Source of the DNA: Streptomyces sp. NBC_00539
GTDB lineage: Bacteria; Actinomycetota; Actinomycetes; Streptomycetales; Streptomycetaceae
DNA length: 64,000 nt
Assembly: GCF_036346105.1 (NCBI RefSeq)
Contig: NZ_CP107811.1
Location: 1,612,001 to 1,676,000 of the forward strand
Reading direction: 5' to 3'
This document shows positions 1 through 47,342 of this stretch, in pieces (the first letter of the stretch is position 1; each line of letters opens with the position of its first letter). The translations under genes were made by a program, and so were the position numbers. The notes beneath the pieces were generated by a model, which saw only the letters and a program-made list of their open reading frames with translations, ran no database searches and was not told the DNA's origin.

Positions 1-3000
1 CACCAGCCGGAACAGGGCGACCTCGACCGCGAACAGCGCCGGCTGGGTGACCGCGGTGGCGTTCAGCGCGTCCGCGTCCTCACCCCACACCACGTCCTTG
101 AGTGACCGCCCGAGGTGGAGGTCGACCTCCGCGCACACCGCGTCGAACGCGGCGGCGAAGGCGGGGAAGGCCTCGTACAGTTCCCGGCCCATCCCGAGGC
201 GCTGCGCACCCTGGCCCGTGAACAGGAACGCCGTCGAACCCTTGGTCACCGTGCCGGTCAGCAGGCCGGGGTGCGGTTGCCCCTCGGCCAGTGCGGCGAG
301 GGCCTCCGTGCGGGCGCCCACGACCACCGCCCGGTGCTCCATCACGCCGCGCGTGGTGGCGAGGCTGAGGCCGATGTCCTCGGGGCGGTGCGCGTCCGCC
401 ACGGCCAGCAGGCGTTCCGCCTGCCCGGCCAGGGCCCGCGGGGTCTTCGCCGACAGCAGCCACGGCACGGCCGGCAGCGCGGCCCGCGTCTCCGGCTCGG
501 TCTCCGGCTCGTCCTGGGGTGCCTGCTCCACGATCACGTGGGCATTGGTGCCGCTCAGGCCGAAGGAGGAGATGCCGGCCCGGCGCGGCCGCCGGCCCGG
601 GGCCTCCCAGTCCCGTGTCTCGGTGAGGAGCTCCACGTCGCCCGCCGACCAGTCGATCTGGTCCGACCGCTCCTGCGCGTGCAACGTGGGCGGCAGGACG
701 CCGTGCCGCATCGCCATGACCATCTTGATCATCCCGGCGACACCGGCGGCGGCCTGGGTGTGGCCCATGTTGGACTTGATGGAGCCCAGCCAGAGCGGCT
801 GTCCCTCCTCGCGTCCCTGGCCGTACGTGGCCAGCAGCGCCTGCGCCTCGATGGGGTCACCGAGACGGGTTCCCGTACCGTGCGCCTCGACCACGTCGAC
901 GTCGGCCGCCGACAGGCCCGCGTCGGCCAGCGCCTGGCGGATCACCCGCTGCTGCGCCGGCCCGTTCGGAGCCGTCAGACCGTTGCTGGCACCGTCCTGG
1001 TTCAGCGCGGAGCCCTTCACCACCGCCAGCACCCGGTGCCCGTTGCGCCGCGCGTCCGACAGCCGCTCCAGCAGCAGCACACCCGCACCCTCACCCCAGC
1101 CCGTACCGTCCGCGCCCGCACCGAACGACTTGCACCGCCCGTCCGGGGCCAGGCCGCGCTGCTCGCTGAAGTACACGAGCATGTCGGGGGTCGCCATGAC
1201 GGTGACTCCGCCCGCGAGCGCCAGCGAGCACTCCCCGGACCGCAGGGCCTGGGCCGCCATGTGCAGGGCCACCAGGGACGACGAGCACGCCGTGTCGACG
1301 GTGACCGCCGGACCCTCCAGGCCCAGCGTGTAGGCGACGCGGCCGGAGACCAGGCTGCCCGCCGTGCCGCCTGCGTAGTCGTGGTACATCACACCGGCGT
1401 ACACACCCGTCCGGCTGCCCTTGAGCGCGGCCGGGTCCACGCCCGCGCGTTCGAGCGCCTCCCAGGAGATCTCCAGCAGCAGCCGCTGCTGCGGGTCCAT
1501 GGTCAGCGCCTCGCGCGGGGAGATCCCGAAGAACGCCGGGTCGAACGCGGCCGCGTCGTAGAGGAATCCACCGTCACGTGCGTACGACTTGCCCGGCACG
1601 CCCGGCTCGGGGTCGTAGACGCCGGGGTCCCAGCCCCGGTCGTCGGGCAGCGGGGCGATGGCGTCGACCCCGCCCGCGACGAGCTGCCAGAGCCCGTCGG
1701 GCGTGGTGACGCCGCCCGGATAGCGGCAGGCCATGCCGACGATCGCGATGGGGTCGTCGTCCGCGCCCCGGACGGCAGGTGCGGCGGGTGCGGGCGTGGC
1801 GTCCGGGGTGCCGTCGAGGACTTCGAGGATGTGGGCGGCGACCGCTCCGGCCGTCGGGTAGTCGAAGATCAGCGTGGCGGGCAGCCGCAGGCCGGTCTCC
1901 TTGTCGAGCCGGTTGCGCAGTTCGACGGCGGTCAGGGAGTCGAAGCCCAGTTCGTCGAAGGCGCGCCGCGGTTCGATGGCGTCGCCCGAGGCATGGCCCA
2001 GTACGGCGGCGATCTTCGTCCGGACGAGGCCGAGGACGGCGTCGGCGCGGTCGGCGCCGGTCAGCCCGGCGAGCCGGTCGCGCAGGGCCGGGGAGCCGCC
2101 CCGGGCGGCGGCGCGGCGGCCGGGGGTTCGGACGAGGCGGCGCAGCAGGGCGGGGGTGTCGTCCACGTGGGCGCGCAGGGCCGTGAGGTCCAGGCGTACG
2201 GGGACGCTCGCGGGCTCGCCGGATGCGAGGGCGGCGTCGAACAGGGCGAGGCCCTGCTCGGCGGAGACGGCCGGGGTGCCGGCCTGCCGCATCCGCTCCA
2301 CTTCGGCCTCGCCGAGCTGCGTGCCCATGCCACCGGGGGTGTCCCAGAGGCCGAAGGCCAGGGAGGCGGCGGCGAGTCCGCCGGTGCGGCGGTGGGCGGC
2401 GAGGGCGTCGAGGAAGGAGTTCGCCGCGGCGTAGTTGGCCTGGCCGGTGGAGCCGAGGGTGCCGGCGAGGGAGGAGAAGAGGACGAACGCGGTGAGGTCG
2501 TGGCCCTGGGTCAGCTCGTGGAGGTGCCATGCCGCGTCGGCCTTGGGGGCGAGGACCGCGTCGAAGCGTTCGGGGGTGAGCGAGGTGAGCACGGCGTCGT
2601 CGAGCACGCCGGCGGCGTGCACGATCCCGCGCAGGGGGTGCTCCGGGTCGATCGCGTCCAGCACGGCGGCCAGCGCGGCCCGGTCGGCCACGTCGCAGGC
2701 GGCGACGGTGACGGTGGCGCCCGACCCGGCGAGTGCGGTGGTGAGTTCGGCGACTCCGGGGGCGTCCGGCCCGCGCCGGCCGACCAGCAGCAGTCGGCGC
2801 ACTCCGTGCTCGGCGACCAGGTGGCGGGCGACGAGGGCGCCGAGGCCGCCGGTACCGCCGGTGATCAGCACCGTTCCGTCGGCGTCCCACACCGGCGGTG
2901 TCGCGGCGGCGGCCGCCCGGACCAGCCGGGGCACCGACACGCGGCCTCCGCGTACCGCGAACTCCGGTTCGCCGTCGGCCCCTACGCGGCCGAGGCCCTC

Positions 3001-6000
3001 GGTGCCGTCGGTGTCGACCAGGAGGAACCGGCCCGGGTTCTCGGCCTGCGCCGCCCGCACCAGACCCCACACGGGGGCCTGCCGTACGTCGACCGGATCG
3101 CCGTCGGCGACGGCCACCGCGCCCCGGGTGAGGAACACGAGGGACGCCCCGGCGAAGCGCGGGTCCGCGAGCCAGGCGTGCAGCACGCCGAGGACCCGGT
3201 GGGTGACCGCGTGCACCGCGTCCACCACGTCCTGCGCGTCCTCCGTCCCGGCGGCGCAGTCGAGGACGACCGTGCCCTCGACCGGGCCGCCGTCGGCGGG
3301 GAGGTCCTCCCAGCGCAGCCACTCCTCCGCCGCGGCCGGGTCGGTCGGCTGCCACGCGACGCGGTACAGCGGGTTCTCGGCGCGACCACCGGCCCGCGTG
3401 TCGTCCATCGCACGGCCGACGACCCCGCCGACCGCGGCGATCGGCGTGCCGTCGGCGTCGGCGAGCTCCAGCGACAGGCTCTGCGGGGTGGGCCGGGTGA
3501 TCCGCACCCTGGCCTCCCCGGAACCCGCGGCGTACAGCCGGACGTCCTTCCACACGAACGGCAGGACCGTCGCGCCGCCGTCGTCCGCGCCGTCACCGGC
3601 GGCTCCGTCGACCATCGCGGCGTGCATCGCGGCGTCCAGCAGGGCCGGGTGCAGCCCGTACGCGTCCGCCGCCGTGTCCTGCGGCAGCACGACCTCGGCG
3701 TACAGCGCGCCGCCGTCCCGCCAGGCGGCCGTCAGGCCCTGGAAGGCGGGCCCGTAGGCGAGACCGCGCTCGCGCAGGGTCTCGTACGCGCCGTCGAGGG
3801 GCAGTGCGGCCGCGCCCGGCGGGGGCCAGGCGCTCAGGTCGAAGGCGGGCGCGTCCGCCCCCTCGGCCAGTACGCCCTCGGCGTGCAGGGTCCAGTCGGG
3901 TTCGCCCCCGTGCTCCGGGAGGCCCTCCGGGCGTGCGTACACGCCGACCGTCCGGCGTCCGGAGTCGTCGGGCGCCCCGACCACGATCTGTACGGCGACG
4001 GCGCCTTCCTCGGGGAGGACCAGCGGGGCGTGCAGGGCGAGTTCCTCCAGGACCTCGCAGCCCGCGTGGTCACCCGCGCGGATCGCCAGTTCCACGAATC
4101 CGGCGCCGGGGAAGAGGATCGCGTCGCGCACCACGTGGTCGCAGAGCCAGGGCTCGGCGGCGACGGCCAGCCTGCCCGTGAGGACCACCCCGCCGGAGTC
4201 GGCGAGGGAGACCACGGCACCGAGCAGGGGGTGCTGGGGCGTGGACAGCCCGGCGGGTGCCTGGCCGCCGGGGCGGAAGGCGTCGATCCAGTACCGGGTG
4301 CGCTGGAAGGGGTAGGTGGGCAGGTCGACGCGGCGGGCGCCGGCGGGGGCGTAGAACGCCTCCCAGTCGACCCGTACGCCGTCCACGTGGAGGTGGGCGA
4401 GGGCCGCGATCAGGGTCTCTGCCTCGGGGCGGTTGCGGCGGACGGCCGGTACGAGGACCCGCTCCTGGTCGGAGTCGAGGCTCTGCGCGGCGAGACCGGT
4501 GAGGATGCCGTCGGGCCCGATCTCCAGGAACCGCGTCACCCCCTGGCCCTCCAACGCCCGGACCGCATCCGCGAACCGCACCGCCTCACGGGCCTGACCG
4601 ACCCAGTACTCGGACGACTGCCAGTCCGCACCGCAACGACCGGCCACCGTCGACACGACACCGAACTTGGGCTCCGCGTAGGAAAGTTCGGACGCCAGGG
4701 CGCCGAACTCGGCCAGCATCGGGTCCATCAGGGCCGAGTGGAAGGCGTGCGAGACGGACAGCCGGCTGGTCTTGCGACCGGCCGCCGCGAAGTGCCCGCC
4801 GACGGCCAGGACGGCCGCCTCGACGCCCGAGACCACGACGGACTGCGGCCCGTTGACGGCGGCGATACCGACTCCGCCGGTCAGCAGCGGCAGGACCTCG
4901 TCCTCGGCGGCCTGCACGGCCAGCATCGCGCCACCGGCAGGAAGCTCCTGCATCAGCCGGCCCCGCGCCACCACCAGCCGCGCCGCGTCCGCCAGCGAGA
5001 AGACACCCGCGACGTGCGCGGCGGCCAGCTCACCGATCGAGTGACCGGCCACGACATCGGGCCGCACGCCCCACGCCTCCACGAGGCGGAACAGGGCGAC
5101 CTCGACCGCGAACAGCGCAGGCTGCGTCAACGCGGTGGCGTTCAACGCCTCCGCGTCCTCACCCCACACCACGTCCTTGAGCGACCGCCCGAGATGGACG
5201 TCCACTTCCGCGCACACCGCGTCGAACGCGCCCGCGAACTCCGGGAAGGCCTCGTACAGTTCCCGGCCCATCCCGAGGCGCTGCGCCCCCTGGCCCGTGA
5301 ACAGGAACGCCGTCCGGCCGCCCTGCCGGGCCTGGCCGGTGATCAGGGCCGGGTGTTCCTCGCCCGCCGCGAGGGCGGCGAGCGCGGCCGTGCGGTCGCC
5401 GACCACCACGGCGCGGTGCTCGAAGAGGGAACGGGTCGCCGCGAGGGAGTGGCCGACGTCGACCGGCTTCGGGTCACCGTCGCGCAGGGAGTCGAGCAGG
5501 CCGCGGGCCTGGTCGGCGAGGGCCTGCGGGGACCTCGCGGACACCGGCCAGGGGGCGGCCGCCACGCCCGCCGGCAGGGCGGGTGCGGGGGTTCCGTCGG
5601 CTTCCGGCTGCTCGGGGGCCTGTTCCACGATGACGTGGGCGTTGGTGCCGCTCAGGCCGAACGAGGAGATGCCCGCGCGCCGGGGCCGGCCGTCGGCCTG
5701 CCATTCCCGCGCCTCGGTGAGCAGGGCCACGTCGCCCACCGACCAGTCGACCTGGTCGGACGGGGCGTCCACGTGGAGGGTCTTGGGCAGTACCCCGTGC
5801 CGCATGGCCATGACCATCTTGATGATGCCCGCGACACCGGCGGCGGCCTGGGTGTGCCCGAAGTTCGACTTCACCGACCCCAGCCACAGCGGCCGGTCCT
5901 GCGGCCGCTTCCTGCCGTACGTGGCCAGCAGCGCCTGCGCCTCGATCGGGTCGCCCAGCCGGGTGCCCGTGCCGTGCGCCTCGACCGCGTCCACGTCGGC

Positions 6001-6951
6001 CGCCGTCAGACCCGCGTCGGCCAGCGCCTGGCGTATCACCCGCTGCTGCGCGGGGCCGTTGGGAACGGTCATGGCGCTGGACGCGCCGTCCTGGTTGACG
6101 GCGGAGCCGCTGACGAGGGCGAGGACCGGGTGGCCGTTGCGGCGCGCGTCGGAGAGCCGCTCCAGCAGCAGTACGCCCGCGCCCTCGCCCCACCCGGTGC
6201 CGTCGGCGGCCGCGGCGAACGGCTTGCACCGGCCGTCCGGGGCCAGTCCGCGCTGGCCGGAGAAGTACACGAGCATGTCCGGGGTGGACATGACGGTCAC
6301 ACCACCCGCCAGGGCCAGGTCGCACTCACCGGACCGCAGGGCCTGGGCGGCCATGTGCAGGGCCACCAGGGACGAGGAGCAGGCCGTGTCCACGGTGACG
6401 GCGGGACCTTCCAGGCCCAGCGTGTAAGCGGTGCGGCCGGAGACGAAGCTGCCCGCGCTGCCGTCGGCGTAGTCGTGGTACATCACACCGGCGTACACGC
6501 CGGTCCGGCTGCCCTTGAGCCGGGTCGGGTCGACGCCCGCCCGCTCGACGGCCTCCCAGGAGATCTCCAGCAGCAGCCGCTGCTGCGGGTCCATGGTCAG
6601 CGCCTCGCGCGGGGAGATCCCGAAGAACGCCGGGTCGAACGCGGCGGCGTCGTAGAGGAACGCACCGTCGCGGGCGTACGTCTTGCCCGGCACGCCCGGC
6701 TCCGGGTCGTAGACGTCGGGGTCCCAGCCGCGGTCGGCGGGGAAGCCGGACACGGCGTCGGTGCCCTCGGCCACCAGCCGCCACAGGCCTTCGGGCGTGC
6801 CCGCGCCGCCCGGGTAGCGGCAGGCCATGGCCACGATCGCGACGGGGTCGTTGCCCGCCGCGGTCAGCCGTGCGTTCTCTTCGCGCAGTCGCTCGTTGTC
6901 CGTGAGTGACTTGCGCAGTGCCGCTACGACCTGTTCCACCGATGTGCTCAC
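1..6951 (-). CDS. Type I modular polyketide synthase (module 4 and start of module 5), 3' end outside window
   Basis: Cytoplasmic megasynthase extending a polyketide chain; 2317 residues are visible and the gene runs off the left edge. The GTG start (complement of 6949-6951) gives a short coiled-coil N-terminus (about residues 1-30, rich in E/R/L) typical of PKS docking domains. Order by approximate residues: KS 35-455 (Cys191 in TACSSSL), AT 550-830 (GHSIGE and HAFH, malonyl type), DH 930-1130, KR 1365-1550 (TGGTGG; LDD motif, B type; YAAAN), ACP 1635-1710 (GFDSL), KS 1730-2150 (Cys1889), then AT from about 2240, cut by the window. No ER is present. The DH motif HxxxGxxxxP reads H939-VVR-D943-AILF-P948, so the Gly is Asp. 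It lies 34 bp downstream of the other PKS gene on the same strand and is probably cotranscribed. Function class is certain; the product is not identifiable from the sequence. Confidence 0.95.
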
Positions 6952-6985
6952 GTCATCCTCGAATTCCGGGTCGGTCCGGTCGGTT

Positions 6986-23380
<16,395 letters not shown>

Positions 23381-23706
23381 CTGCACGCTCCCAGCTCGGT
23401 ATCGATTGCCCCGGGCGCGGTTCCGGCCACGGGGTGATCGCACGCTAGGTCGGTCGCGAACGGGCGCGACACCCCTATCCCCCCAGGTGTTGACCCTGCC
23501 CGCGGCCGGCCCCCACGGCGCCCGGCGACCCGCGCCCGGGCGCCCGGTGGGACGACGTGCCAGCTGGGCAGGGGTGCGGGGCGCTACGGGCGCGGTCAGG
23601 GGGGTGGTCGGTGTTCTCGGCGCGCTCCCCGGACGCCTTCAATGGCACGCACTGCCCAGGGCGCCGCCTCCCGCGGGCCCCCGAGGCGAGAAGAGACGGG
23701 TGGAGC
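23381..23706. promoter_or_regulatory. Divergent promoter region between PKS and carboxylase genes
   Basis: A 326 bp gene-free stretch drives the PKS to the left and the acyl-CoA carboxylase to the right. TAGGGGTG lies on the minus strand at 23470-23477, 90 bp before the PKS start. CAGGGGTG lies on the plus strand at 23569-23576, 131 bp before the carboxylase start. A TANNNT-type -10 (TAGCGT, minus strand, about 23440) is downstream of the first motif. The 8-mer also recurs near pqqA, so it may be a regulator site. No conserved regulatory family is recognised. Confidence 0.45.
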
Positions 23707-25266
23707 ATGACAGTTGCCGATGTGAACGTGCGAGTGGCCGAACTGGGAGCGATCAAGGAGTCGGCCGAGCTGGGCCCGTCGCCGAGCGCGTCGCAGGCGC
23801 AGCACGCCCGGGGCAAGCTGACGGTGCGCGAGCGGCTGGACCTGCTGTTCGATCCGGGCACGTTCCGGGAGATCGAGCAGCTGCGCCGTCACCGGGCTTC
23901 CGGATTCGGGCTGGAGGACCGCCGGCCGCACACCGACGGCGTGGTGACGGGCTGGGGCAAGGTCGACGGCCGCCGGGTGTTCGTGTACGCGCACGACTTC
24001 CGGATCTTCGGCGGCTCGCTCGGTGAGGCCCACGCGCAGAAGATCCACAAGGTGATGGACCTCGCGGTCGCGGCGGGCGCCCCGCTGGTCTCGCTGAGCG
24101 ACGGCGCGGGGGCCCGTATCCAGGAGGGCGTGACCGCGCTCGCCGGGTACGGCGGCATCTTCCGCCGCAACGTCGCCGCCTCCGGGGTGATCCCGCAGAT
24201 CAGCGTGATGCTCGGGCCGTGCGCGGGCGGAGCGACGTACTCCCCCGCCCTGACGGACTACGTGTTCATGGTCCGTGACATCGCGCAGATGTACATCACG
24301 GGCCCTGACGTGGTGCAGGCGGTGACGGGCGAGCGGATCAGCCACAACGACCTCGGCGGCGCGCAGGTGCACTCGTCGGTGTCCGGCGCGAGCGCGTTCC
24401 TGTACGACACGGAGGAGGAGTGCCTGGAGGAGGTGCGCCACCTGCTGTCGCTGCTTCCTTCCAACAACCGGGAGCTGCCGCCGTCGGTGGCGGCGGACGA
24501 TCCGGCCGACCGGCGGTGCGGGGCGCTGGCGGAGCTGGTGCCGGCCGATCCCAACCGCTCGTACGACATGCGCGCCGTGATCGAGGAGATCGTCGACGAC
24601 GGGGACCTGTTCGAGGTCCACGCCAACTGGGCGACCAACATCATCTGCGGTCTGGCCCGGCTGGACGGGCACGTGGTCGGCATCGTCGCCAACCAGCCCG
24701 CCTCCCTCGCCGGCGTGCTGGACATCCACGCCTCGGAGAAGGCCGCCCGGTTCGTGCAGACCTGCGACGCGTTCAGCATCCCGCTGGTGACGCTCGTGGA
24801 CGTGCCGGGCTTCCTGCCGGGCAGCGACCAGGAGCACAACGGGGTCATCCGGCACGGTGCGAAGCTGCTGTACGCGTACTGCGCGGCCACGGTGCCGCGG
24901 GTGCAGGTGATCCTGCGCAAGGCGTACGGCGGCGCGTACATCGTCATGGACTCGCGCTCGATCGGCGCGGACCTGTCGTTCGCGTGGCCCACCAACGAGA
25001 TCGCCGTGATGGGTGCGGAGGGCGCGGCGAACGTCGTCTTCCGCCGGGAGATCGCCGCCGCGGACGACCCGGAGGCGGCGCGCGCGCAGCGCGTCAAGCA
25101 GTACCGCCAAGAGCTGATGCACCCCTACTACGCGGCCGAACGCGGCCTCGTGGACGACGTCATCGACCCGGCCATGACCCGGCAGGTGCTGGTGGACGCC
25201 CTGGAGGCGCTGCGGGCCAAGCACGTGCCGCTGCCCGAACGCAAGCACGGCAACCCGCCGTTCTGA
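23707..25266 (+). CDS. Acyl-CoA carboxylase beta (carboxyltransferase) subunit, acetyl-CoA type
   Basis: A 519-residue carboxyltransferase subunit of a biotin-dependent acyl-CoA carboxylase, which transfers CO2 from carboxybiotin to an acyl-CoA. The ATG at 23707 follows a GGTGGAGC ribosome site; longer upstream reading lacks family similarity. Crotonase-fold motifs are clear: GARIQEGV, GPCAGGATYSPA, and in the second half GFLPGSDQEHNG and RKAYGGAYIVM. In Streptomyces PccB/AccB enzymes the residue after AYGGAY sets substrate choice: Asp in propionyl-CoA-specific PccB, Ile in AccB. Here it is Ile412, so acetyl-CoA (or broad short-chain) use and malonyl-CoA output are expected. This matches the all-malonyl AT domains next door. 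The epsilon subunit follows 31 bp downstream. No biotinylated alpha subunit is in the window, so a housekeeping one is probably shared. Confidence 0.93.
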   Translation: MTVADVNVRVAELGAIKESAELGPSPSASQAQHARGKLTVRERLDLLFDPGTFREIEQLRRHRASGFGLEDRRPHTDGVVTGWGKVDGRRVFVYAHDFRIFGGSLGEAHAQKIHKVMDLAVAAGAPLVSLSDGAGARIQEGVTALAGYGGIFRRNVAASGVIPQISVMLGPCAGGATYSPALTDYVFMVRDIAQMYITGPDVVQAVTGERISHNDLGGAQVHSSVSGASAFLYDTEEECLEEVRHLLSLLPSNNRELPPSVAADDPADRRCGALAELVPADPNRSYDMRAVIEEIVDDGDLFEVHANWATNIICGLARLDGHVVGIVANQPASLAGVLDIHASEKAARFVQTCDAFSIPLVTLVDVPGFLPGSDQEHNGVIRHGAKLLYAYCAATVPRVQVILRKAYGGAYIVMDSRSIGADLSFAWPTNEIAVMGAEGAANVVFRREIAAADDPEAARAQRVKQYRQELMHPYYAAERGLVDDVIDPAMTRQVLVDALEALRAKHVPLPERKHGNPPF

Positions 25267-25550: not shown

Positions 25551-26309
25551 ATGACCGCGACCACGACCACGACCGCAGGCGCCTGGCTGCGCCGGTTCCA
25601 CCCCGCCGAGGACGCGCCCGTACGGCTGGTCTGCCTGCCGCACGCGGGCGGCTCGGCCAGCTACTACTTCCCGGTGTCCCGGGCCCTGTCCCCGCAGGCC
25701 GACGTGGTGGCCGTGCAGTACCCGGGCCGCCAGGACCGCCGCCACGAGCCGTGCCTGGACGACGTACGGGAGCTCGCCGACCGGGTGGTGGCGCAGCTGC
25801 TGCCGTGGTGCGACCGGCCGGTGGCGCTGTTCGGGCACAGCCTGGGCGCGACCCTCGGCTTCGAGGTGGCGCTGCGGCTGGAGGAGGCCGGGCACCCGCC
25901 GGTTGCGCTGTTCGCGTCGGGCCGCCGGGCGCCGTCCCGGCACCGGGAGGACGAACGGATCCACCTCGCACCGGACGAGCGGCTGCTGGCCACCATCAAG
26001 GGGATGAGCGGTACGGATCCCGCCGTGCTCGCCGACGACGAACTGCTGCGGGCGGTGCTGCCGGCGATCCGCGGCGACTACAAGGCCGCGGAGAGCTACC
26101 GGTACCGGCCGGGACCGCTGCTGAACTGCCCGGTGCTGGTGCTGAACGGGGACGCCGACCCGGAGGTGACCGCCCTGGAGGCCGAGGGCTGGACCGACCA
26201 CACGAGGGGTCCCGTGTCCTTCCACTGGTTCACCGGGGGGCACTTCTACCTGAACGAGCACGCCGCAGAGGTCATCGGCCTGGTCCGCAGGCGCCTCGCA
26301 GGGTCCTGA
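25551..26309 (+). CDS. Type II thioesterase (polyketide editing)
   Basis: A 252-residue alpha/beta hydrolase of the PKS/NRPS-associated type II thioesterase family. These discrete enzymes remove aberrant or decarboxylated acyl groups from carrier proteins. Visible motifs are LPHAGGSASYYFP near the N-terminus, the nucleophile elbow GHSLGA (about residue 100), the catalytic Asp region NGDADPEVT (about 204), and the His in GGHFYLNE (about 231). Length is normal for the family. It is the third gene of a plus-strand set with the carboxylase subunits, divergent from the PKS. A GC-rich hairpin immediately downstream separates it from the convergent pqqB. Confidence 0.93.
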   Translation: MTATTTTTAGAWLRRFHPAEDAPVRLVCLPHAGGSASYYFPVSRALSPQADVVAVQYPGRQDRRHEPCLDDVRELADRVVAQLLPWCDRPVALFGHSLGATLGFEVALRLEEAGHPPVALFASGRRAPSRHREDERIHLAPDERLLATIKGMSGTDPAVLADDELLRAVLPAIRGDYKAAESYRYRPGPLLNCPVLVLNGDADPEVTALEAEGWTDHTRGPVSFHWFTGGHFYLNEHAAEVIGLVRRRLAGS

Positions 26310-26364: not shown

Positions 26365-27264
26365 TCAGAGTTCCAGGCGCGTTCCGTCCGCCGGGATCTG
26401 CGCCCCGGCCCCGCGGACCTCCAGGTGCTCCTCGGAGCGGGGATCGGCCATCGCGTTGGTGTTGTTCAGGTGCGTGTACGCCCACCGGGTCTCCGGCCGC
26501 GTGGCGCGCAGCCGCCGGACGTGCTCCAGGCTGGCGCCCTCCCCCACCACCGGCAGGTGGCCCATCGCCGCCTGCGGTGCCGTCGTCCCCGCGGCGCCCG
26601 TCGCACCGCCGAACTCCCGCGCCGTGTGGAACGTACCGTCGAGCAGTACGTAGCCGGCGCCCGCCGTGAAGGCGTCGAAGCCGTCGGGCCAGCCGGCCAG
26701 GCAGGGCGCGTACACGAAGGCGCCGCCCGTGGCCGGGTCCTCGAATCGGTAGGCGACCACCCACGGTCCCGCTTCGGCCGACGTACGCGCGTACTTGGGG
26801 CGTTTGTCGCCGACCGCGAAGGCGGTGACCCGCAGCCCCCCGATGTCCCTCGCTCCGCCCGCCGCGAGCTCGGACCATTCCCAGCCGCTGTAGCCGCCGA
26901 GGATCCCGCGCACCGGGAAGCCGTCGTCCAGCGCCCCGAGTACGGCCCGGCTCGCCCACACCCGCAGCCCGCCGCCTTCGCGGAGCATCATCAGGCCGAG
27001 GGTGTGGTCGAGTTCGGCGTCGGTGAGCAGCACCCCGCGCACCGGGGTCTGGCGGGGGCCGGGGCCGGCAGCCAGCTCCGGGGTCGCGAGGATCTGCGCG
27101 CGGATGTCGGGCGAGGCGTTGACGAGGTACCAGTCGCGGCCGTTCGCGCTGACGGCGACGCCGTCCTGGCTGCGGGCGGGCGCACCCGAGGTGCACACCG
27201 GGCAGGCGCAGTTCCACTGCGGGCAGCCGCCGCCGGCCGCCGTGCCGAGCAGGATGACCTTCAC
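26365..27264 (-). CDS. pqqB: PQQ biosynthesis protein PqqB
   Basis: A 299-residue metallo-beta-lactamase-fold protein of PQQ biosynthesis; the family acts as an oxygenase on the processed Glu-Tyr precursor before the PqqC step. The sequence begins VKVILLGTAAGGGCPQWNC followed by A-C-P-V-C, giving the cysteine-rich structural metal site typical of PqqB. TDAELDHTLGL and THLNNTNAM are the other family signatures. The GTG start (27262-27264) overlaps the pqqE stop as GTGA, so it is translationally coupled. It is the last gene of the pqqA-C-D-E-B operon. Length fits the family at about 300 residues. Confidence 0.95.
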   Translation of the reverse strand: MKVILLGTAAGGGCPQWNCACPVCTSGAPARSQDGVAVSANGRDWYLVNASPDIRAQILATPELAAGPGPRQTPVRGVLLTDAELDHTLGLMMLREGGGLRVWASRAVLGALDDGFPVRGILGGYSGWEWSELAAGGARDIGGLRVTAFAVGDKRPKYARTSAEAGPWVVAYRFEDPATGGAFVYAPCLAGWPDGFDAFTAGAGYVLLDGTFHTAREFGGATGAAGTTAPQAAMGHLPVVGEGASLEHVRRLRATRPETRWAYTHLNNTNAMADPRSEEHLEVRGAGAQIPADGTRLEL

Positions 27265-28385
27265 CGGCGCACCGCCGCAACCGGGCGGGGTCCGCGCATG
27301 ACCATCTCGGGCACAGCCGCGCCGGGCGTGGCCAGCAGCAGGTCGACGACGCCGCGCCGGTCCGACTTGGAGCAGACGGGGTCGGTCGCGGCCGCGTCCC
27401 CGGTGAGCAGGAACGCCTGGCAGCGGCAGCCGCCGTGGTCGACGGAGCGCCGGTCGCAGCTGCGGCACAGGTCCGGCATCCATTCCTCGCCGCGGTAGGC
27501 GTTGAAGGAGCCGGACTTGTACCAGATGTCGCCGAGGGGGGTGTCCTTGACGTTGTCGAGGGTGAGGGTGGTGATCGCGCCGGCCGCGGGGCAGGGCAGC
27601 ACGGTGCCGTCGGGGGCGACCGTGAGCTGGAGCGCGCCCCAGCCGTGCATGCACGGCTTGGGGTAGGGCTCGTAGTAGTCCGCGAGCACGTACACGATCT
27701 CCATCGTGCCTTTGAGCCGCTCGATGGCGGCCCGGACGACCGGTTCGGCCGCCGCCAGCTGGTCGGGGGTGGGCATCAGGGCGGCCCGGTTGCGCAGGGC
27801 CCAGCCGTAGTACTGGGTGTTGGCGAGCTCCAGGCGGTCGGCGCCCATGGCTTCGGCGAGTTCGATGAGGCCGGCGAGCTGGTCGTGGTTGCCGCGGTGC
27901 AGGACGGCGTTGACGGTCAGGGGCAGGCCGCGTGCGCGGACCAGCGCCGCGGCGGTGATCTTGTGGTGGTGGGCCCGGGCGCCGGCGAGGAGGTCGGCCC
28001 GTTCGGCTGTCGCACCCTGCACCGACAGCTGTACGTGGTCCAGGCCGCGCTCGGCCAGGTCCGCGAGGCGTGCTTCGGTCAGTCCGAGACCGCTCGTGAC
28101 GAGGTTGACGTACGCGCCGAGGCCGCTCACGTGCGAGACGAGCTCGGGCAGGTCGGGGCGGGCCAGCGGCTCGCCGCCCGACAGGTGCACCTGCAGGACG
28201 CCGATCTCGCGGGCCTGGGTGAACACCTCCGTCCACTGCGCAGTGGTCAACTCCTTCTCGCGCTCGATGAGTTCGAGCGGGTTGGAGCAGTATCCGCAGT
28301 GCAGCGGGCAGCGGTGGGTGAGTTCGGCGAGCAGCCCCAGCGGCGGGGCGGCGGCCGGTGTCTGCGGTGCGGGGGTCAGGTCCAT
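27261..28385 (-). CDS. pqqE: Radical SAM PQQ synthase subunit PqqE
   Basis: A 374-residue radical SAM/SPASM enzyme. PqqE, with PqqD as peptide chaperone, forms the C-C bond between the Glu and Tyr side chains of PqqA. The radical SAM CxxxCxxC motif is in THRCPLHCGYCSNP (about residues 25-35), followed by HLSGGEPLARPDL. The C-terminal SPASM cysteines are visible in CMHGWGALQ, LPCPAAG, LCRSCDRRS, CRCQAF and DPVCSKS. The ATG at 28383-28385 gives MDLTPAPQTP and overlaps the pqqD end by 10 bp. Every family feature is intact. Confidence 0.97.
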   Translation of the reverse strand: MDLTPAPQTPAAAPPLGLLAELTHRCPLHCGYCSNPLELIEREKELTTAQWTEVFTQAREIGVLQVHLSGGEPLARPDLPELVSHVSGLGAYVNLVTSGLGLTEARLADLAERGLDHVQLSVQGATAERADLLAGARAHHHKITAAALVRARGLPLTVNAVLHRGNHDQLAGLIELAEAMGADRLELANTQYYGWALRNRAALMPTPDQLAAAEPVVRAAIERLKGTMEIVYVLADYYEPYPKPCMHGWGALQLTVAPDGTVLPCPAAGAITTLTLDNVKDTPLGDIWYKSGSFNAYRGEEWMPDLCRSCDRRSVDHGGCRCQAFLLTGDAAATDPVCSKSDRRGVVDLLLATPGAAVPEMVMRGPRPVAAVRR

Positions 28386-28630
28386 CGGACGACTCCGTTC
28401 TCGGCGAGCCGTGCCAGCACCGCACCGACCTCTTCCTCGCGCACCCCGGCGTACGTGGCGCCCAGCGCCTCGGCGATCCCCGGTACGGTCGTCACCCCGT
28501 CGCACAGTTCGAGCACCGAGACGGCCGTGCGGTTGGGCACGAGCACGCCTTCGGGGTGGAGGACGACGTGGGTCTGCCGGGTCTTGTCGTAGATGAGCCG
28601 CACACCGCGGCCGAGTACGGGCCGCTCCAC
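28376..28630 (-). CDS. pqqD: PQQ biosynthesis protein PqqD (PqqA-binding chaperone)
   Basis: A small winged-helix RiPP recognition protein that binds PqqA and presents it to PqqE. The reading begins (V)ERPVLGRGVRLIYDKTR and contains the PqqD hallmark LHPEGVLVPNRTAVSVLELCDG, with a C-terminal LARLAENGVVRW. I place the start at the GTG at 28628-28630 because AAGGAG lies 5 nt upstream. A GTG two codons earlier (28636) would sit inside that site. The resulting 84 residues fit the family at about 90. It lies 40 bp after pqqC and overlaps pqqE. Confidence 0.93.
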   Translation of the reverse strand: MERPVLGRGVRLIYDKTRQTHVVLHPEGVLVPNRTAVSVLELCDGVTTVPGIAEALGATYAGVREEEVGAVLARLAENGVVRWT

Positions 28631-28670
28631 GGCCACTCCTTCTCGCAGGTCTCGCAGGTTCGGTTCCCCG

Positions 28671-29369
28671 TCACCCGGGCACGGTGACGGCGGCGCGTTC
28701 GATGGCGTCGAGCATCAGCCACAGCACCTCGCACTTGAAGCGGAGCGCGGCGACGGCCGCGTCCTGGTGCTCGCGGGTGGTGGCGTACCGGACGACGATG
28801 TCGAGGGTGCCCTTGCCCTCCCCGGAGACCGCTTCGATCCGGTCGGTGAAGTAGGCGAGGTCCTCGGCCCGGATCCAGTCGTAGTGGGCGAGCATGTCGG
28901 TGACCCTGCGGGTCATCAGGTGCCCGGCGAACATCTCCGTCAGGCCCGAGGCGATCGCCTCGGTCCACGGCTTCGTGCGGGCGAAGGTGACGTACGCGTC
29001 GACCGCGAACCGCACCCCGGGCAGCAGGTGGCGTTCGTCCAGCACCTCTTCGCGGGTCAGGCCCACGGCCTCGCACAGCCGCATCCAGCGCTCGATGCCG
29101 CCCTCGTCGCCGGGGGTGCCGTCGTGGTAGGCGAGGCGGTCCACCCAGGCCCGCCGGACCTCGGGCAGCGGGCAGTTGCTGATGATCGCCGCGTCCTTCT
29201 GCGGCAGCATGCGCTGGTAGTACCAGCGGTTCGCGGCCCACAGCCGCAGCTCGCGCCGGTCCAGGGCGCCGCTGTGCAGGCGCCGGTGGAAGGGGTGGGC
29301 GCCCCAGTAGGAGGAGGACAGCCCGCGCAGGGCGCCGATGAACTCGGACTCGCCCAGAAGTGTGGTCAT
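28671..29369 (-). CDS. pqqC: PQQ synthase PqqC
   Basis: A 232-residue all-helical, cofactorless oxidase that performs the final ring closure and eight-electron oxidation to PQQ. Family motifs are HPFHRRLHSGAL, LWAANRWYYQRMLPQKDAAI (substrate-binding Arg/Tyr region), DEGGIERWMRLCEAVGL and ALRFKCEVLWLMLDAIE near the C-terminus. The ATG at 29367-29369 follows a GGGAAACC stretch. The gene is 83 bp downstream of pqqA, and that gap carries a strong hairpin. Length is close to the usual 240-250. Confidence 0.96.
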   Translation of the reverse strand: MTTLLGESEFIGALRGLSSSYWGAHPFHRRLHSGALDRRELRLWAANRWYYQRMLPQKDAAIISNCPLPEVRRAWVDRLAYHDGTPGDEGGIERWMRLCEAVGLTREEVLDERHLLPGVRFAVDAYVTFARTKPWTEAIASGLTEMFAGHLMTRRVTDMLAHYDWIRAEDLAYFTDRIEAVSGEGKGTLDIVVRYATTREHQDAAVAALRFKCEVLWLMLDAIERAAVTVPG

Positions 29370-29407
29370 ATCGGTTTCCCGCCCGTGGTCCGTCGTCCTG
29401 TGACCGT

Positions 29408-29437
29408 GGCGGGTGCCGGTGTGCGCCGGCCCCCGCC
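29408..29437 (-). promoter_or_regulatory. Stem-loop between pqqA and pqqC (possible attenuator or mRNA processing site)
   Basis: GGCGGG-t-GCCGG at 29408-29419 pairs with CCGGC-c-CCCGCC at 29426-29437: 11 base pairs with one symmetric mismatch and a 6-nt loop. It is wholly within the 83 bp pqqA-pqqC gap. A partial terminator here would yield more transcript of the small precursor than of the enzymes, as reported for other pqq operons. That role is inferred. Confidence 0.6.
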
Positions 29438-29452
29438 GTCCCGAGGGCCGGT

Positions 29453-29572
29453 TCACTTCTCCAGACGCGCGGCGTACGCGGTGACCTCGAAAGCCGTCTC
29501 GAAGGCGACGAAGTCGGGGGTCGTCCACACCTCGGTGGTCCACGCCTCGGGGGTCTCGGTGATCTCAGCCAT
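29453..29572 (-). CDS. pqqA: PQQ precursor peptide PqqA
   Basis: A 39-residue precursor peptide whose Glu and Tyr side chains become PQQ. The core reads VWTTPDFVAF then ETAFEVTAYAARLEK, aligning with the classical PqqA pattern W-x-x-P-x-F ... FEVT-x-Y. The conserved pair is Glu29 and Tyr33 (E-V-T-A-Y). The Gly usually preceding FEVT is Ala here. The N-terminus is longer than in proteobacterial PqqA (about 23 residues) and contains an extra W-T-T-E segment, perhaps part of the PqqD-binding leader. The ATG is at 29570-29572 with AGGAGC 6 bp upstream. It is the first gene of the operon. Confidence 0.93.
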   Translation of the reverse strand: MAEITETPEAWTTEVWTTPDFVAFETAFEVTAYAARLEK

Positions 29573-37524: not shown

Positions 37525-38577
37525 CTACCCGCGGGGCACCACCGTCGCCAGGACCTTCGGCAGCGGGTACCAGTCCGCCGAGGCTATGGAGGCGTGGTGC
37601 CCCGCCATCAGCGCGAGCCGGTCCAGCGCCTGGGTCTCGGTCGGGTGGACGCCGTCGATGGCCGGGGCCACGCCCTGGGCGTCGGTGGCGATCAGCAGGT
37701 AGTGGTTGCGGTCGTACCAGCCGGTGTCGATGGAGCCGCCCGCGTACGCGGCCGCATCGCCGTCGAAGACCACGAACCAGGGCCGCAGCGAGGCATCGGC
37801 GTAGCGGGCCCGCGGATCGCCCGCCTCGGCGCGGTGCACGGCCGGGAAGGCGGCGGCGCTGCCCAGCCTGCCCGTGGAGGCGAGGCCGCGCAGGTGCGTC
37901 GCGTACTCCCGGTCCGTCCAGAGGGTGTCGGCGCCGTTGCCCTCCTCCAAGGTCCCGGGGATCAGCTCGACGAGGAACTTCCCGGCCATGGCGGCGCGGC
38001 TCGGCCAGGCCCCGGCGCGGGCCGCGGTGTCCAGGTCGGGGTAGCCGGCGGCCAGCTGCCCGGGACGGTAGACGGCGTCGCCCAGCTTGGCGGTGAGCAG
38101 CGCGTCGAGGTCGGCGGGACCGCGCCCCAGGTTGGCGGCGAAGCCGTCCTTGAGCTCCAGCTTGAGCACGACCGGGCGGTGGCCGGGGTGTGCGTCGTGC
38201 CAGCTGCGGATGTCGGACAGGCAGCCCGCGAGGTTCTGGTCGCGGGATTTGGTGCGCAGCTGGGCGGGGCTGGTGGCGTTCTCGCAGTTGCTGTTGTTGC
38301 CGAAGGGGTTGTCGTGCGAGACCCGCCAGGAGCTGCCGAAGAAGTTCGTCCACACGTCGAGTTCGAGCATGGCCGCGCCGGAGTCCAGTGCGTCCGCGAA
38401 GTAGGGGTACTTGGCCTTCTCGTAGGCGTTGTGCACGCCGACGCCGGTGGATCCGATGTAGGACAGCCCGTCCTCGGCCCCGGCGGGGGCCGCCGCGCCC
38501 AGGGCGAGGCCCAGGCCGAGCGCCGCCACGGCCAGACCGGCCAAGGCCGTGTCCCTCCACCTGTTGCGCAGTCTCAT
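37525..38577 (-). CDS. Secreted Ca2+-dependent phosphatidylinositol-specific phospholipase C-like protein
   Basis: A 350-residue exported protein of the PI-PLC-like TIM-barrel phosphodiesterase superfamily. I use the ATG at 38575-38577 (MRLRNRW) because GGGGAG stands 9 nt upstream; it yields an Arg-rich N-region, a long hydrophobic stretch (LAGLAVAALGLGLALG) and an AxA cleavage site near residue 33. The mature part has IGSTGVGVHNAY with the first catalytic His, AMLELDVW with metal-binding acids, and WRVSHDNPFG with the second His. PVVLKLELKDG follows as in Ca2+-dependent Streptomyces PI-PLC. It cleaves glycerophosphoinositides in the family; the real substrate here is inferred. It is convergent with the protease gene. 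Confidence 0.85.
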   Translation of the reverse strand: MRLRNRWRDTALAGLAVAALGLGLALGAAAPAGAEDGLSYIGSTGVGVHNAYEKAKYPYFADALDSGAAMLELDVWTNFFGSSWRVSHDNPFGNNSNCENATSPAQLRTKSRDQNLAGCLSDIRSWHDAHPGHRPVVLKLELKDGFAANLGRGPADLDALLTAKLGDAVYRPGQLAAGYPDLDTAARAGAWPSRAAMAGKFLVELIPGTLEEGNGADTLWTDREYATHLRGLASTGRLGSAAAFPAVHRAEAGDPRARYADASLRPWFVVFDGDAAAYAGGSIDTGWYDRNHYLLIATDAQGVAPAIDGVHPTETQALDRLALMAGHHASIASADWYPLPKVLATVVPRG

Positions 38578-38780
38578 CTCTTCGGCTCCCCTCGGGTCCT
38601 TGTCGCTCAAGTCGCGTGGAGGCTAAGGGAGTTCGGTGACGTACGGAAGGACGCGGGATGTCGGGAAAGGGGGCGCGACCGTCCGGCTGTGAGCACCGAC
38701 ACACCGGAATGCGGAACTCCTGCCGCCCGCGCACCGTCGGACGGGACGTCGGAGGAACGTCAGGGGGCGGGGAGCGCCAC

Positions 38781-39755
38781 ATGGTCGGCAAGGTGAGGGA
38801 CCGCGCGGTTCGGGTCTCCGTGCTGCTCGGAATCTGCCTCGCCCTGGTGGCCGGCGGGGCCCTGGTGTGGGGAGAGCTGCGCGCCGTCGCCTCGAACCGC
38901 GCCGACGGCGACCCTGGGCAGGGCAGCTACCTCCAGGACCCCGAGCGCGCCGACCGTACGGCCGGTGACGTCCTGGACGGGATCGTCGCCGAGGGCGAGG
39001 ACCCGCCGGCCGACGCCACGGCCTTCGCGGGGACGGAGTCCGGCTCCGGGGCGTCCGGAGCCCCGGACCCGGTGCGGTGGGCGGACGGCGGCTGGCGGCC
39101 CTCCTCGCCGCTGCGGGCCCGCACGGCCCCCTCCGAGCCCGCGATCGGGGCGCTGTTCTCCCCCGGCAACGACTGGGACGCCGACCACCACTGCTCGGCG
39201 AGCGTGGTCCACTCGCCCGAGGGCGACCTCATCGCCACCGCCGCGCACTGCGTGTACCAGGACGGCTTCCGCACCAACCTGGCCTTCGTCCCCGGCTACC
39301 GCGACGGGAAGGCCCCGTTCGGCGTGTGGGTGCCCACCCGTATCGACGTGGACCCCCGCTGGACGGGCGACGAGGACCCGGACCACGACGTGGCCTTCCT
39401 GCGGCTGCGCCGGCCCGGGCACCCGGGTGAGCGGCTGGAGGACGTCACGGGCGCGCTGACGATCCGCTTCCGGCCCCGACTGCCGCTGCCCGCCCGGCTG
39501 GTCGGCTACCCGAACGACCGCGAGCAGCCGCTGGAGTGCTACAACACCGCCCGGGCCGAAGGGCCCACGCAGCTGCGGCTGGACTGCGCGGACGTACCGA
39601 ACGGCACCAGCGGCGGCCCCGTGCTGACCGACGGGCACACCTTGATCGGGGTCATCGGCGGCCGCGACGGGGGCGGCGACGAGACGACCTCGTACAGCAG
39701 CTGGTTCGACGACTCCGTCCACGGCCTCTACACGCGGGCGACCGGGGGGCGCTGA
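38781..39755 (+). CDS. Exported trypsin/V8-like serine protease
   Basis: A 324-residue S1-family protease with an N-terminal signal or anchor segment (VRVSVLLGICLALVAGGALVW, about residues 10-31). The catalytic triad is visible: His in IATAAHCVYQ, Asp in DPDHDVAFLRL, Ser in NGTSGGPVL. A DDWD/DHHCSASVV segment with a paired Cys precedes the His. The ATG at 38781 follows GGGGAG; upstream in-frame starts add a poorly conserved, polar stretch. A Gly/Asp-rich linker (about residues 40-110) separates the membrane segment from the domain. It is divergent from the PLC-like gene across 203 bp, which shows no further gene. Closest by motif to small glutamyl or trypsin-like extracellular proteases. Confidence 0.88.
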   Translation: MVGKVRDRAVRVSVLLGICLALVAGGALVWGELRAVASNRADGDPGQGSYLQDPERADRTAGDVLDGIVAEGEDPPADATAFAGTESGSGASGAPDPVRWADGGWRPSSPLRARTAPSEPAIGALFSPGNDWDADHHCSASVVHSPEGDLIATAAHCVYQDGFRTNLAFVPGYRDGKAPFGVWVPTRIDVDPRWTGDEDPDHDVAFLRLRRPGHPGERLEDVTGALTIRFRPRLPLPARLVGYPNDREQPLECYNTARAEGPTQLRLDCADVPNGTSGGPVLTDGHTLIGVIGGRDGGGDETTSYSSWFDDSVHGLYTRATGGR

Positions 39756-40009
39756 CCTCGGGCGGCGGTGCGGCGGGGCGGCAGGCGGCTGGGTGGTTGT
39801 CCGGTGCGTCGTCGTCCATGCCGCAGAGTCTGCGTGGGGGCCCGGCGCCGGAGCAGGGCCCATCCGGGGCGCCCGGGAGCGCGGCGGGGGCGGACGGGAT
39901 TCACGCGAGGGCGCCCGCGCGGCACCCGGTGCCACCCTGGTCCCTTCCCCCGTCACCGCGCCCAGTAGGCTGCGGGTCCACCCGCTTCCCGTCCCCGAGG
40001 TTCCGCGCC

Positions 40010-41278
40010 GTGAGCTCCGCCGCACCCCCCCGCCCCGTGACGGTCGTCGGCCTCGGCGCCGACGGCTGGGCCGGGCTCACCGCCGCCGCGCGCTCCGCGC
40101 TGGCCACCGCCGAGGTGCTGATCGGCGGCCCTCGGCAGCTGGACCTGCTGCCGGCCGGGGAGTGCCCCGGTGAACGCGTCGCCTGGCCGAGTCCGCTGCG
40201 CCCCGCCGTGCCGAAGCTGATGGCCGAGCACGCCGGCCGCCGCATCGCCGTACTGGCCAGCGGCGACCCCATGTTCTACGGGATCGGCCGGGCCCTCGCG
40301 CAGGAGCTCGGACCACACGCCCTGCTGGTCCACCCGCACCCCTCCTCCGTGTCGTACGCGTGCGCCCGCCTGGGCTGGCCGGTGGAGGACATCGAGGTGG
40401 TCACGGTCGTCGGCCGCCCGCTGGCCCGGGTCGCGGCCGCGTTGTACGAGGGCCGGCGGCTGCTGGTACTGAGTGCCGGGGCGGCCTCCCCGGGCGAGAT
40501 CGCCGCTCTGCTGAGGGAGCGGGGCTTCGGCCCCAGCCGGATGCGGGTGCTGGAACAGCTCGGCTCCGAGGACGAGACCGCGTACGAGGGCCACGCCGAC
40601 ACCTGGGACCGGGCGCCCGGCGACCCCCTGAACGTGGTCGCCGTGGAGTGCCGGCGCGACCCCGGCGCCGACGTGCCGCGGCTCGGCGCCACCCCCGGCC
40701 TGCCCGACACCGCCTACGAACACGACGGCCAGCTCACCAAACGGCACGTCCGCGCGGCGACCCTGTGCGCGCTCGCCCCGGCCCCCGGTGAACTGCTGTG
40801 GGACATCGGCGGCGGCTCGGGCTCGATCGGCATCGAGTGGATGCGTACGCACCCCTCCTGCCGCGCCGTGACGGTGGAACGGGTCCCGGAGCGGGCCGAG
40901 CGGATCACCCGCAACGCGGCGGCGCTCGGCGTGCCGGGCCTGCGGGTGGTCACCGGCGCCGCCCCGGCGGCGCTGATCGGACTGCCCGCCCCCGACGCGG
41001 TGTTCATCGGTGGCGGCCTGACCGCGCCGGGCCTGTTGGACGCGGCCTGGGCGGCGTTGGCCCCCGGCGGCCGGCTGGTGGTCAACACGGTCACCTTGGA
41101 GTCGGAGGCCGCATTGACCGACCGATACCGCCGGCACGGCGGTGAACTGGTGAAGCTGGCCGTCGCGCACGCCGTGCCGGTCGGCGGCTTCACGGGCTGG
41201 CGGCAGGCAATGCCCGTCACCCAGTGGACCGTGAGCAAGCCGTGGCCGACGGCGACAGAGACGAGGGAGCAGACATGA
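40010..41278 (+). CDS. cobL: Precorrin-6Y C5,15-methyltransferase (decarboxylating), CbiE-CbiT fusion
   Basis: A 422-residue bifunctional cobalamin enzyme that methylates precorrin-6B at C5 and C15 and decarboxylates the C12 acetate. Residues 8-210 form the CbiE-type uroporphyrin-methylase fold (VTVVGLGADGWAGL, LASGDPMFYGIG, HPHPSSVSYACARLGW). After a linker, residues about 225-410 form the CbiT-type Rossmann methyltransferase (LTKRHVRAATLCAL, LLWDIGGGSGSIGIEWMR). I chose the GTG at 40010, in frame after a long upstream reading without family character. Its stop overlaps the cobM start as ATGA. It begins the plus-strand cobL-cobM-cobK set. The 254 bp before it contain no recognisable gene. 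Confidence 0.95.
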   Translation: MSSAAPPRPVTVVGLGADGWAGLTAAARSALATAEVLIGGPRQLDLLPAGECPGERVAWPSPLRPAVPKLMAEHAGRRIAVLASGDPMFYGIGRALAQELGPHALLVHPHPSSVSYACARLGWPVEDIEVVTVVGRPLARVAAALYEGRRLLVLSAGAASPGEIAALLRERGFGPSRMRVLEQLGSEDETAYEGHADTWDRAPGDPLNVVAVECRRDPGADVPRLGATPGLPDTAYEHDGQLTKRHVRAATLCALAPAPGELLWDIGGGSGSIGIEWMRTHPSCRAVTVERVPERAERITRNAAALGVPGLRVVTGAAPAALIGLPAPDAVFIGGGLTAPGLLDAAWAALAPGGRLVVNTVTLESEAALTDRYRRHGGELVKLAVAHAVPVGGFTGWRQAMPVTQWTVSKPWPTATETREQT

Positions 41279-42775: not shown

Positions 42776-42862
42776 TCCGCCCACCCGGCCTGATCCGCCC
42801 GCGCGCCGGGGCCGCGACGGCGTCTGTATAGGCTTCCCGGACACGCTGATGGCCGGAAAGAG

Positions 42863-43573: not shown

Positions 43574-43591
43574 AAGGGACCGGAGCATGAA

Positions 43592-43636
43592 GGGGCCCCG
43601 GACGCGGCGACCCACGGTCGACGCGCCCGGGGCCCC
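43592..43636. terminator. Putative bidirectional terminator between lepB and cobIJ
   Basis: GGGGCCCCGG at 43592-43601 and CCGGGGCCCC at 43627-43636 form a 10 bp inverted repeat with a 25 nt loop. It sits in the 83 bp between two convergent genes. Each arm is also nearly self-complementary. No T-run was seen. Confidence 0.55.
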
Positions 43637-43656
43637 AGGGCCTCAGCGACGGCCCG

Positions 43657-47104: not shown

Positions 47105-47194
47105 GGCCGCGAGCATACCCACGTTTGCCCACCCCCGACCTGTGTCCACCGCCACCCTGATCTGCGGCGCCCGCCCCCCGGGCCCCCAACTCCC

Positions 47195-47300
47195 CCTCCA
47201 GCCCCCGCCGCCCCTCTCCGGCCCCGGCCGCCCTCCAGCCCCGGCTGCCGCATCCGGCCCCGGCCGCCACCATCCGGCCCCGCCGCCACAATGCAGCCCC
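47195..47300. repeat. Degenerate tandem repeat of a ~19 bp GC-rich unit
   Basis: Between cobG and the riboswitch about five imperfect copies of a unit like CCGGCCCCGGCCGCC plus a few bases follow one another (for example near 47216, 47233, 47253, 47272). The stretch is almost free of A/T and no gene is supported in it. Replication slippage is the simplest origin. Confidence 0.5.
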
Positions 47301-47342
47301 GCCGGCGTTTGAGGCGCGGGGGCCCGGGGGCAGAGCCCCCTC
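47293..47342. repeat. Streptomycete-type dispersed intergenic element, possible terminator
   Basis: The sequence CAGCCCCGCCGGCGTTTGAG (47294-47313), followed by a GCGCGGG run and GGGGGCAGAGCCCCC (47326-47340), resembles a short element I recall as frequent in Streptomyces intergenic regions. Its end forms a 5 bp GC hairpin. Recognition is from memory only; copy number in this genome is unknown. Confidence 0.4.

Follow-up and report, generated by a model that had tools for sequence, protein, structure and literature searches.

A pqq operon bordering a putative polyene macrolactam gene cluster in Streptomyces sp. NBC_00539, and its probable quinoprotein partner

The window analysed here, a stretch of 64,000 nucleotides (C1:1612001-1676000) from the 7.5-Mb genome of Streptomyces sp. 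NBC_00539 (G000), carries at positions 26365-29572 an operon for the biosynthesis of pyrroloquinoline quinone (PQQ), pqqACDEB. This operon probably supplies PQQ to a quinoprotein-type dehydrogenase, the gene of which lies within the same polyketide synthase (PKS) gene cluster, at its opposite end, and which would perform a late oxidation of a polyene macrolactam. The operon itself is most likely an optional cofactor module for that oxidation.

NCBIfam profile search and translation identified five intact genes on the minus strand, the products of which all exceed their equivalog cut-offs (given in brackets after the scores): pqqA (29453..29572; precursor peptide of 39 amino acids; TIGR02107, 27.0 bits [20]), pqqC (28671..29369; PQQ synthase; TIGR02111, 274 bits [240]), pqqD (28376..28630, with a GTG start; peptide chaperone; TIGR03859, 58.7 bits [46], scored as 28376-28627), pqqE (27261..28385; radical SAM maturase of the CxxxCxxC type; TIGR02109, 534 bits [381], scored as 27261-28382) and pqqB (26365..27264; TIGR02108, 322 bits [245]). 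A gap of 83 bp separates pqqA from pqqC, pqqD and pqqE overlap by 10 bp, and the stop codon of pqqE and the start codon of pqqB share the sequence GTGA. PqqA possesses the segment E29-V-T-A-Y33, i.e. Glu-x3-Tyr at the expected spacing, and the radical SAM motif of PqqE reads CPLHCGYC. When the five genes were read through, neither in-frame stops nor TTA codons were found. No gene for a PqqF/G-type peptidase was present inside the operon, the rest of the genome not having been searched for one. The five genes correspond to the complete gene set for PQQ biosynthesis, and production of the cofactor is predicted. An earlier sequence-only reading of the window had described the same coupled minus-strand operon of five intact genes, with the same 39-residue PqqA and its Glu29 and Tyr33, and in both respects it was right.

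That reading had also pointed to the region left of position 1 as the place where PQQ-dependent dehydrogenases might be encoded. Annotation of the leftward surroundings over 120 kb from the window edge indeed revealed a gene of this kind within the same cluster (C1:1573112-1574710; L006:1112-2710). It is located about 37 kb left of window position 1 and about 65 kb from pqqE, at the opposite cluster end, 136 bp downstream of a loading-type adenylation (A) domain and on the same strand. Its product matches PF01011 with 105 bits (cut-off 26.7), and no further PF01011 gene is present in the genome. Trp, Asn, D-x-D and Lys positions, which like a vicinal Cys pair we take to have roles at the PQQ/metal site, align with those of Streptomyces quinoprotein alcohol dehydrogenases encoded beside pqq and of the lankacidin-type quinoprotein. 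PQQ binding by the enzyme is likely. The N-terminus, judged by eye, resembles a signal peptide (RR, a hydrophobic stretch and AxA), so the dehydrogenase looks exported. The D-x-D occupies the region of the catalytic Asp, as is typical of lanthanide-dependent quinoproteins.

The dehydrogenase is not confined to this strain. Within a genus sample of 393 Streptomyces genomes, relatives at E <= 1e-30 occurred in 10, with identities of at least 70% only in G000, G054 and G147. Four further loci, in Streptomyces sp. 2131.1, AC1-42W, S. smaragdinus RB5 and S. spiralis, were found by a scan of genome contigs for relatives of the cluster's KamA-type enzyme (see below), which retained the best 80 of 572 relatives, 22 of them being compared. 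At least seven clusters with the dehydrogenase are thus available. At the other 18 of the 22 compared loci no dehydrogenase was found within about 10 kb; four of these 18 have PKS matches (L089, L093, L094, L102).

pqq adjoins two of the seven clusters. The cluster of G054 has the same gene order as that of G000 and pqq at the same place, and 1.2 kb beyond its pqqA the next homologue of a window gene is the flanking gene 37525-38610. From this it follows that pqq forms the right border of the cluster. The five other clusters showed no pqq after the thioesterase gene, with at least 11 kb read in each; the cluster ends lie on separate contigs in G147, S. spiralis and probably S. smaragdinus, and the assemblies of G147 and S. 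smaragdinus consist of many contigs. S. spiralis possesses an ordinary alcohol-dehydrogenase-type pqq locus on a contig other than that of the cluster. The sequence-only reading had depended on homologous PKS clusters carrying pqq, and this was borne out in one of the six other clusters (G054) and not in the remaining five. Because the dehydrogenase is present in seven clusters and pqq beside two, the former belongs stably to one cluster family, to which the latter is an optional addition. A transposase-like frame, recognised by eye, directly follows the thioesterase gene in G147 (L079:10915-11721), at what is the pqq site of G000 and G054. Neither the KamA tree nor a tree of six proteins separated G000, G054 and a three-strain clade, so a gain in the ancestor of G000 and G054 alone and an earlier gain followed by loss both remain. 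Between G000 and G054 the synonymous divergence (dS) of the pqq genes was 0.19-0.53, compared with 0.28-0.40 for six cluster genes and 0.48 for the flanking gene, and the pN/pS ratio of pqq was 0.16-0.32, indicating purifying selection. A divergence like that of the cluster genes, combined with these ratios, argues that pqq and cluster have been kept under selection together.

Several observations weigh against the proposed partnership. With TIGR03075, the PQQ alcohol dehydrogenase family, the enzyme reached 137.6 bits and so missed the cut-off of 480, and TIGR04528, whose name marks it as a quinoprotein-like family devoid of PQQ, matched it with 116 bits. At the canonical place the vicinal Cys pair is missing (one is present elsewhere), and solved PQQ enzymes are only remote matches (best E 2.2e-27). 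Besides the five clusters of seven that lack adjacent pqq genes, PqqE at E <= 1e-60 was not found in the genomes of sp. 2131.1, AC1-42W and S. smaragdinus, the last a many-contig assembly, and the many-contig genome G147 yielded neither PqqB at E <= 1e-10 nor PqqE over the cut-off. Four of the 10 sampled genomes with a dehydrogenase relative are without PqqE over the cut-off (G147, G205, G276, G284). It might thus be thought that the enzyme is quinoprotein-like without using PQQ and that pqq is a hitch-hiker which arrived separately, as the TIGR04528 match and the failure to find PqqE in four of the seven genomes with an orthologous dehydrogenase would suggest. We regard this as improbable, since all seven cluster dehydrogenases retain Trp, Asn, D-x-D and Lys at these positions and since pqqC-D-E-B in G356 (apparently S. 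carminius; L057:8061-19998) has a dehydrogenase of this subfamily (53-58% identity) on either side; the stretch read there contained no type I ketosynthase (KS) match. Moreover, an exported quinoprotein could take up PQQ from outside. The glucose dehydrogenase of Escherichia coli is an exported quinoprotein of this kind, the PQQ of which is taken from the surroundings.

The PKS consists of five genes that extend leftwards out of the window, from 1635443 down to 1583270 (52 kb). Gene 1 (6986..23443, minus strand) encodes an N-terminal acyl carrier protein (ACP) and modules 1-3, each with KS, acyltransferase (AT), dehydratase, ketoreductase and ACP; gene 2 (1..7017, minus strand) has its 3' end beyond the window, and genes 3-5, like the starter, export and quinoprotein genes, lie left of position 1. 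A motif scan, from which these assignments are taken, revealed ten modules with 10 KS and 10 AT domains, every AT bearing the malonyl-type motif HAFH, and a terminal thioesterase (PF00975) is present at the PKS end. From right to left the cluster reads pqqA-C-D-E-B, thioesterase and carboxylase genes on the opposite strand, the five PKS genes, an AMP-binding adenylating enzyme, a major facilitator superfamily (MFS) pump, a KamA-family radical SAM enzyme, a pyridoxal phosphate (PLP) enzyme, a second A domain and the dehydrogenase. Further left follow a standalone AT, a FAAL-like ligase (so named from its sequence), a KS-AT-ACP protein, an FkbH-like protein (TIGR01686, 271 bits), an ACP, an Sfp-type transferase and a LuxR-type regulator. 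The type II thioesterase gene next to pqq (25551..26309, plus strand; PF00975, 183 bits) ends 55 bp from pqqB and was found in all six other related clusters. Beside it, the PccB-like beta subunit of an acyl-CoA carboxylase (23557..25266, plus strand; TIGR01117, 721 bits, below its own cut-off) has a probable role in extender supply.

The starter genes suggest what this PKS makes. The KamA-type enzyme scored 117 bits with TIGR00238 and 79.5 bits with TIGR04368, both below cut-off, and had no Pfam match. It is 68-70% identical to the products of Salinispora and Micromonospora loci having PKS matches; relatives with 70-73% identity are encoded on the large Streptomyces plasmids NZ_CP108009.1, NZ_CP109497.1 and CP109185.1. 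A gene of the PLP class I/II aminotransferase type adjoins it. The second A domain has its best PDB match in 6akd (569 bits), which we take to be IdnL7 of incednine, the other adenylating enzyme matches PF00501 with 240 bits, and the standalone AT is FabD-like. Two adenylating enzymes, a standalone AT and a thioesterase, as expected of 3-aminobutyrate macrolactam clusters, are thus all present. According to a review (PMC11284099), IdnL4, likely a radical SAM glutamate 2,3-aminomutase, and the decarboxylase IdnL3 constitute a route to a 3-aminobutyrate starter. In view of this route and of the starter genes, the cluster is read as one that probably makes a polyene macrolactam primed by a beta-amino acid, and the gene content makes 3-aminobutyrate the probable starter. 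The sequence-only reading had spoken of a polyene-like PKS with an AT in each module; type I PKS and ATs stand, and the class is better given as a beta-amino-acid-primed polyene macrolactam PKS. The incednine-type, lobosamide and salinilactam clusters likewise combine a KamA-type enzyme, adenylating enzymes, a standalone AT and a modular PKS with terminal thioesterase, but the quinoprotein and the pqq operon set the present cluster apart from them. The terms 'PQQ' and 'pyrroloquinoline' do not occur in the main texts of PMC10662134, PMC9230918 and PMC5785472, nor 'PQQ' in that of PMC11284099, and in the portion of the open-access literature consulted we found no PQQ-linked macrolactam cluster.

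A precedent exists in another PKS class. The lankacidin cluster, located on plasmid pSLA2-L of S. rochei, includes a quinoprotein dehydrogenase, which according to the title of Yamauchi et al. 2018 reportedly acts at the final oxidation step; to our knowledge this is the single case of polyketide tailoring by a quinoprotein in Streptomyces. The comparison with lankacidin already drawn from the window sequence holds, on the evidence of plasmid pSGRIFU1 of S. griseofuscus (NZ_CP051007.1). Its record annotation gives pqqB-E-D-C-A at 4-7 kb and, on the far side of the PKS, at 40.5-42.1 kb, a PQQ-binding-like protein gene directly after genes for an ACP and an FkbH-like HAD-IIIC protein. Streptomyces sp. 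NBC_01224 has the same layout. Judged by gene content, not by record label, both clusters are in our reading of the lankacidin type. In both pSGRIFU1 and the present cluster, pqqACDEB in this order marks one end and a related quinoprotein gene the other; an FkbH-like HAD-IIIC phosphatase, an ACP, an MFS pump and an alpha/beta hydrolase are further shared features. Identities between the lankacidin-type plasmids and the present cluster are 61-64% for PqqE, 42-44% for the dehydrogenase and 32-34% for FkbH. pSGRIFU1, however, has few PKS genes and one discrete malonyltransferase, whereas the present cluster has an AT in all ten modules and a beta-amino-acid starter; it thus does not share the discrete-AT PKS of the lankacidin type. 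The relatives compared here, again unlike that type, mostly keep the dehydrogenase without pqq. In a PqqE tree (39 rows, quick method) G000, G054 and Actinocrispum grouped together (SH-aLRT 96), had Nocardia ninae and the two plasmids as neighbours (SH-aLRT 89) and stood apart from the common Streptomyces types, so that the phylogenetic comparison proposed with the sequence-only reading places the present and lankacidin-type enzymes on neighbouring branches. Within another PKS class, the arrangement represents a variant of the lankacidin type. For the lankacidin starter, lactoyl-ACP derived from 1,3-bisphosphoglycerate has been proposed (PMC6162330).

In the mechanism which we propose, the KamA-type aminomutase and the PLP enzyme would make the beta-amino acid, probably 3-aminobutyrate, which the adenylating enzymes would load and ten malonyl modules would elongate. 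The thioesterase would release the macrolactam and the MFS pump export it, and the dehydrogenase, furnished with PQQ by the pqqACDEB operon at the other cluster end, would convert a hydroxyl of the product, by then exported or on the membrane side, into a ketone in a late step, as reported for the lankacidin quinoprotein. We infer that the macrolactam is the substrate. Enacyloxin oxidase of Gram-negative bacteria is likewise a quinoprotein carrying out late oxidation of a polyketide hydroxyl; the parallel drawn here is one of role. The sequence-only reading had suggested a quinoprotein step either tailoring the polyketide or making its starter. The first is well supported by genomics, if not proved; we reject the second because starter-type genes (KamA-type, PLP and adenylating enzymes) are present and the dehydrogenase, by eye, looks exported.

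One might object that the dehydrogenase belongs to the adjoining block of FkbH, ACP, KS-AT-ACP, FAAL and Sfp genes and tailors the product of that block, two clusters lying side by side. The gene does have the A domain on one side and the standalone AT and FAAL genes on the other, and its counterpart on the lankacidin-type plasmids directly follows ACP and FkbH. We nevertheless consider this rather unlikely, since the short distance of 136 bp ties the dehydrogenase to the A domain and since the FkbH-ACP pair and the macrolactam block occur together in all six dehydrogenase clusters with the region in reach (G000, G054, G147, 2131.1, AC1-42W, S. spiralis), which suggests one product. The recurrence of FkbH-ACP with the dehydrogenase here and in the lankacidin-type cluster suggests instead where the late oxidation of the macrolactam may take place: by analogy, we would guess at an alpha-hydroxyacyl unit derived from the FkbH-like enzyme and its ACP.

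The sequence-only reading had stated that PQQ genes are mostly known from Gram-negative bacteria. This needs correction, for they are not rare in Streptomyces: PqqE exceeded the cut-off in 87 of the 393 genomes, at 102 places. The surroundings of pqqE were read for up to about 10 kb on each side (less at contig ends and for G054 and G356), and among the 101 places outside the window a type I KS was present in G054 only. Co-occurrence of pqq with this PKS within that distance extends to the orthologous cluster of G054. In the 393 genomes pqq was not seen at the same place without the PKS, the matching chromosomal place in PKS-less strains not having been read separately. PqqE relatives at E <= 1e-128 occurred in four genomes (100, 85, 62 and 59% identity), and the close type (at least 85%) in two, both bearing the present cluster. 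In a phylum sample PqqE at E <= 1e-110 was found in 12 of 396 genomes, none besides our own exceeding 58%. The nearest other pqqACDEB (60-76%) is that of Actinocrispum wychmicini, where the 20 kb read contained no dehydrogenase relative; the four neighbours annotated there encode two metalloproteases, an anti-sigma factor and a regulator. Among the 10 genomes with a dehydrogenase relative, six have PqqE over the cut-off (G000, G054, G122, G142, G243, G356), against 87 of 393 overall.

We also considered, and rejected, the view that the operon reflects a general trait of the genus. The common types are loci of the order ADH-pqqB-C-D-E (ADH, alcohol dehydrogenase) and a third lineage, with PqqE 52-62% identical to the present one. 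The ADH loci share the PqqB-E families with the present cluster but differ in gene order, in an alcohol dehydrogenase of another subfamily (about 30%), in PqqE (54-60%) and in the lack of any type I KS up to about 10 kb away. Around the pqq genes of the third lineage (L202-L280) neither dehydrogenase type had a relative within about 10 kb, and by coordinates several of these loci are near a PF07995 gene. PQQ might accordingly serve a soluble sugar dehydrogenase (PF07995) or general metabolism, its placement beside the cluster being accidental. G000 does possess one PF07995 gene, at the distant position C1:2267934, PF01011 and PF07995 being the PQQ enzyme families searched for. We give this explanation little credence, because PF07995 is present in 292 of 296 genus genomes, pqq or not, whereas PqqE exceeds the cut-off in 87 of 393, and so does not track pqq, and because the present pqq type is restricted to the two sampled genomes with the cluster.

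If the operon does serve the cluster's dehydrogenase, quinoprotein tailoring of polyketides would extend from lankacidin to beta-amino-acid macrolactams. What is new relative to the lankacidin type is that most of the sister clusters read have retained the enzyme but carry no genes for the cofactor. More tentatively, and on balance doubtfully, the whole macrolactam family might be finished outside the cell by the quinoprotein, most species using PQQ made by their neighbours and one lineage having taken in a lankacidin-type pqq operon. An antibiotic of this kind would be finished only where PQQ is present, whether shared as a public good or synthesised by the producing strain. With the enzyme, the cofactor supply and sister strains with and without pqq named, dependence of an antibiotic on community PQQ can be tested by feeding.

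Beyond the operon, the segment 29743-37458, between pqqA and the flanking gene 37525-38610, comprises a small frame and ferredoxin-reductase-like, P450, tyrosine-phosphatase-like, methyltransferase-like and M6 metalloprotease genes. We considered it as a part of the cluster and rejected it, since its genes are absent from the matching place in G054. The chromosomal flank at 39536-51194 contains the cobalamin genes cbiE/T and cobM, a precorrin-6A reductase gene, cobI/J, a precorrin-8X methylmutase gene and cobN as well as a signal peptidase gene. It is followed at 51514-53730 by a gene for a terpene cyclase of the type carried as cargo by family 2 encapsulins (NF041168; 1108 bits, below the cut-off of 1200).

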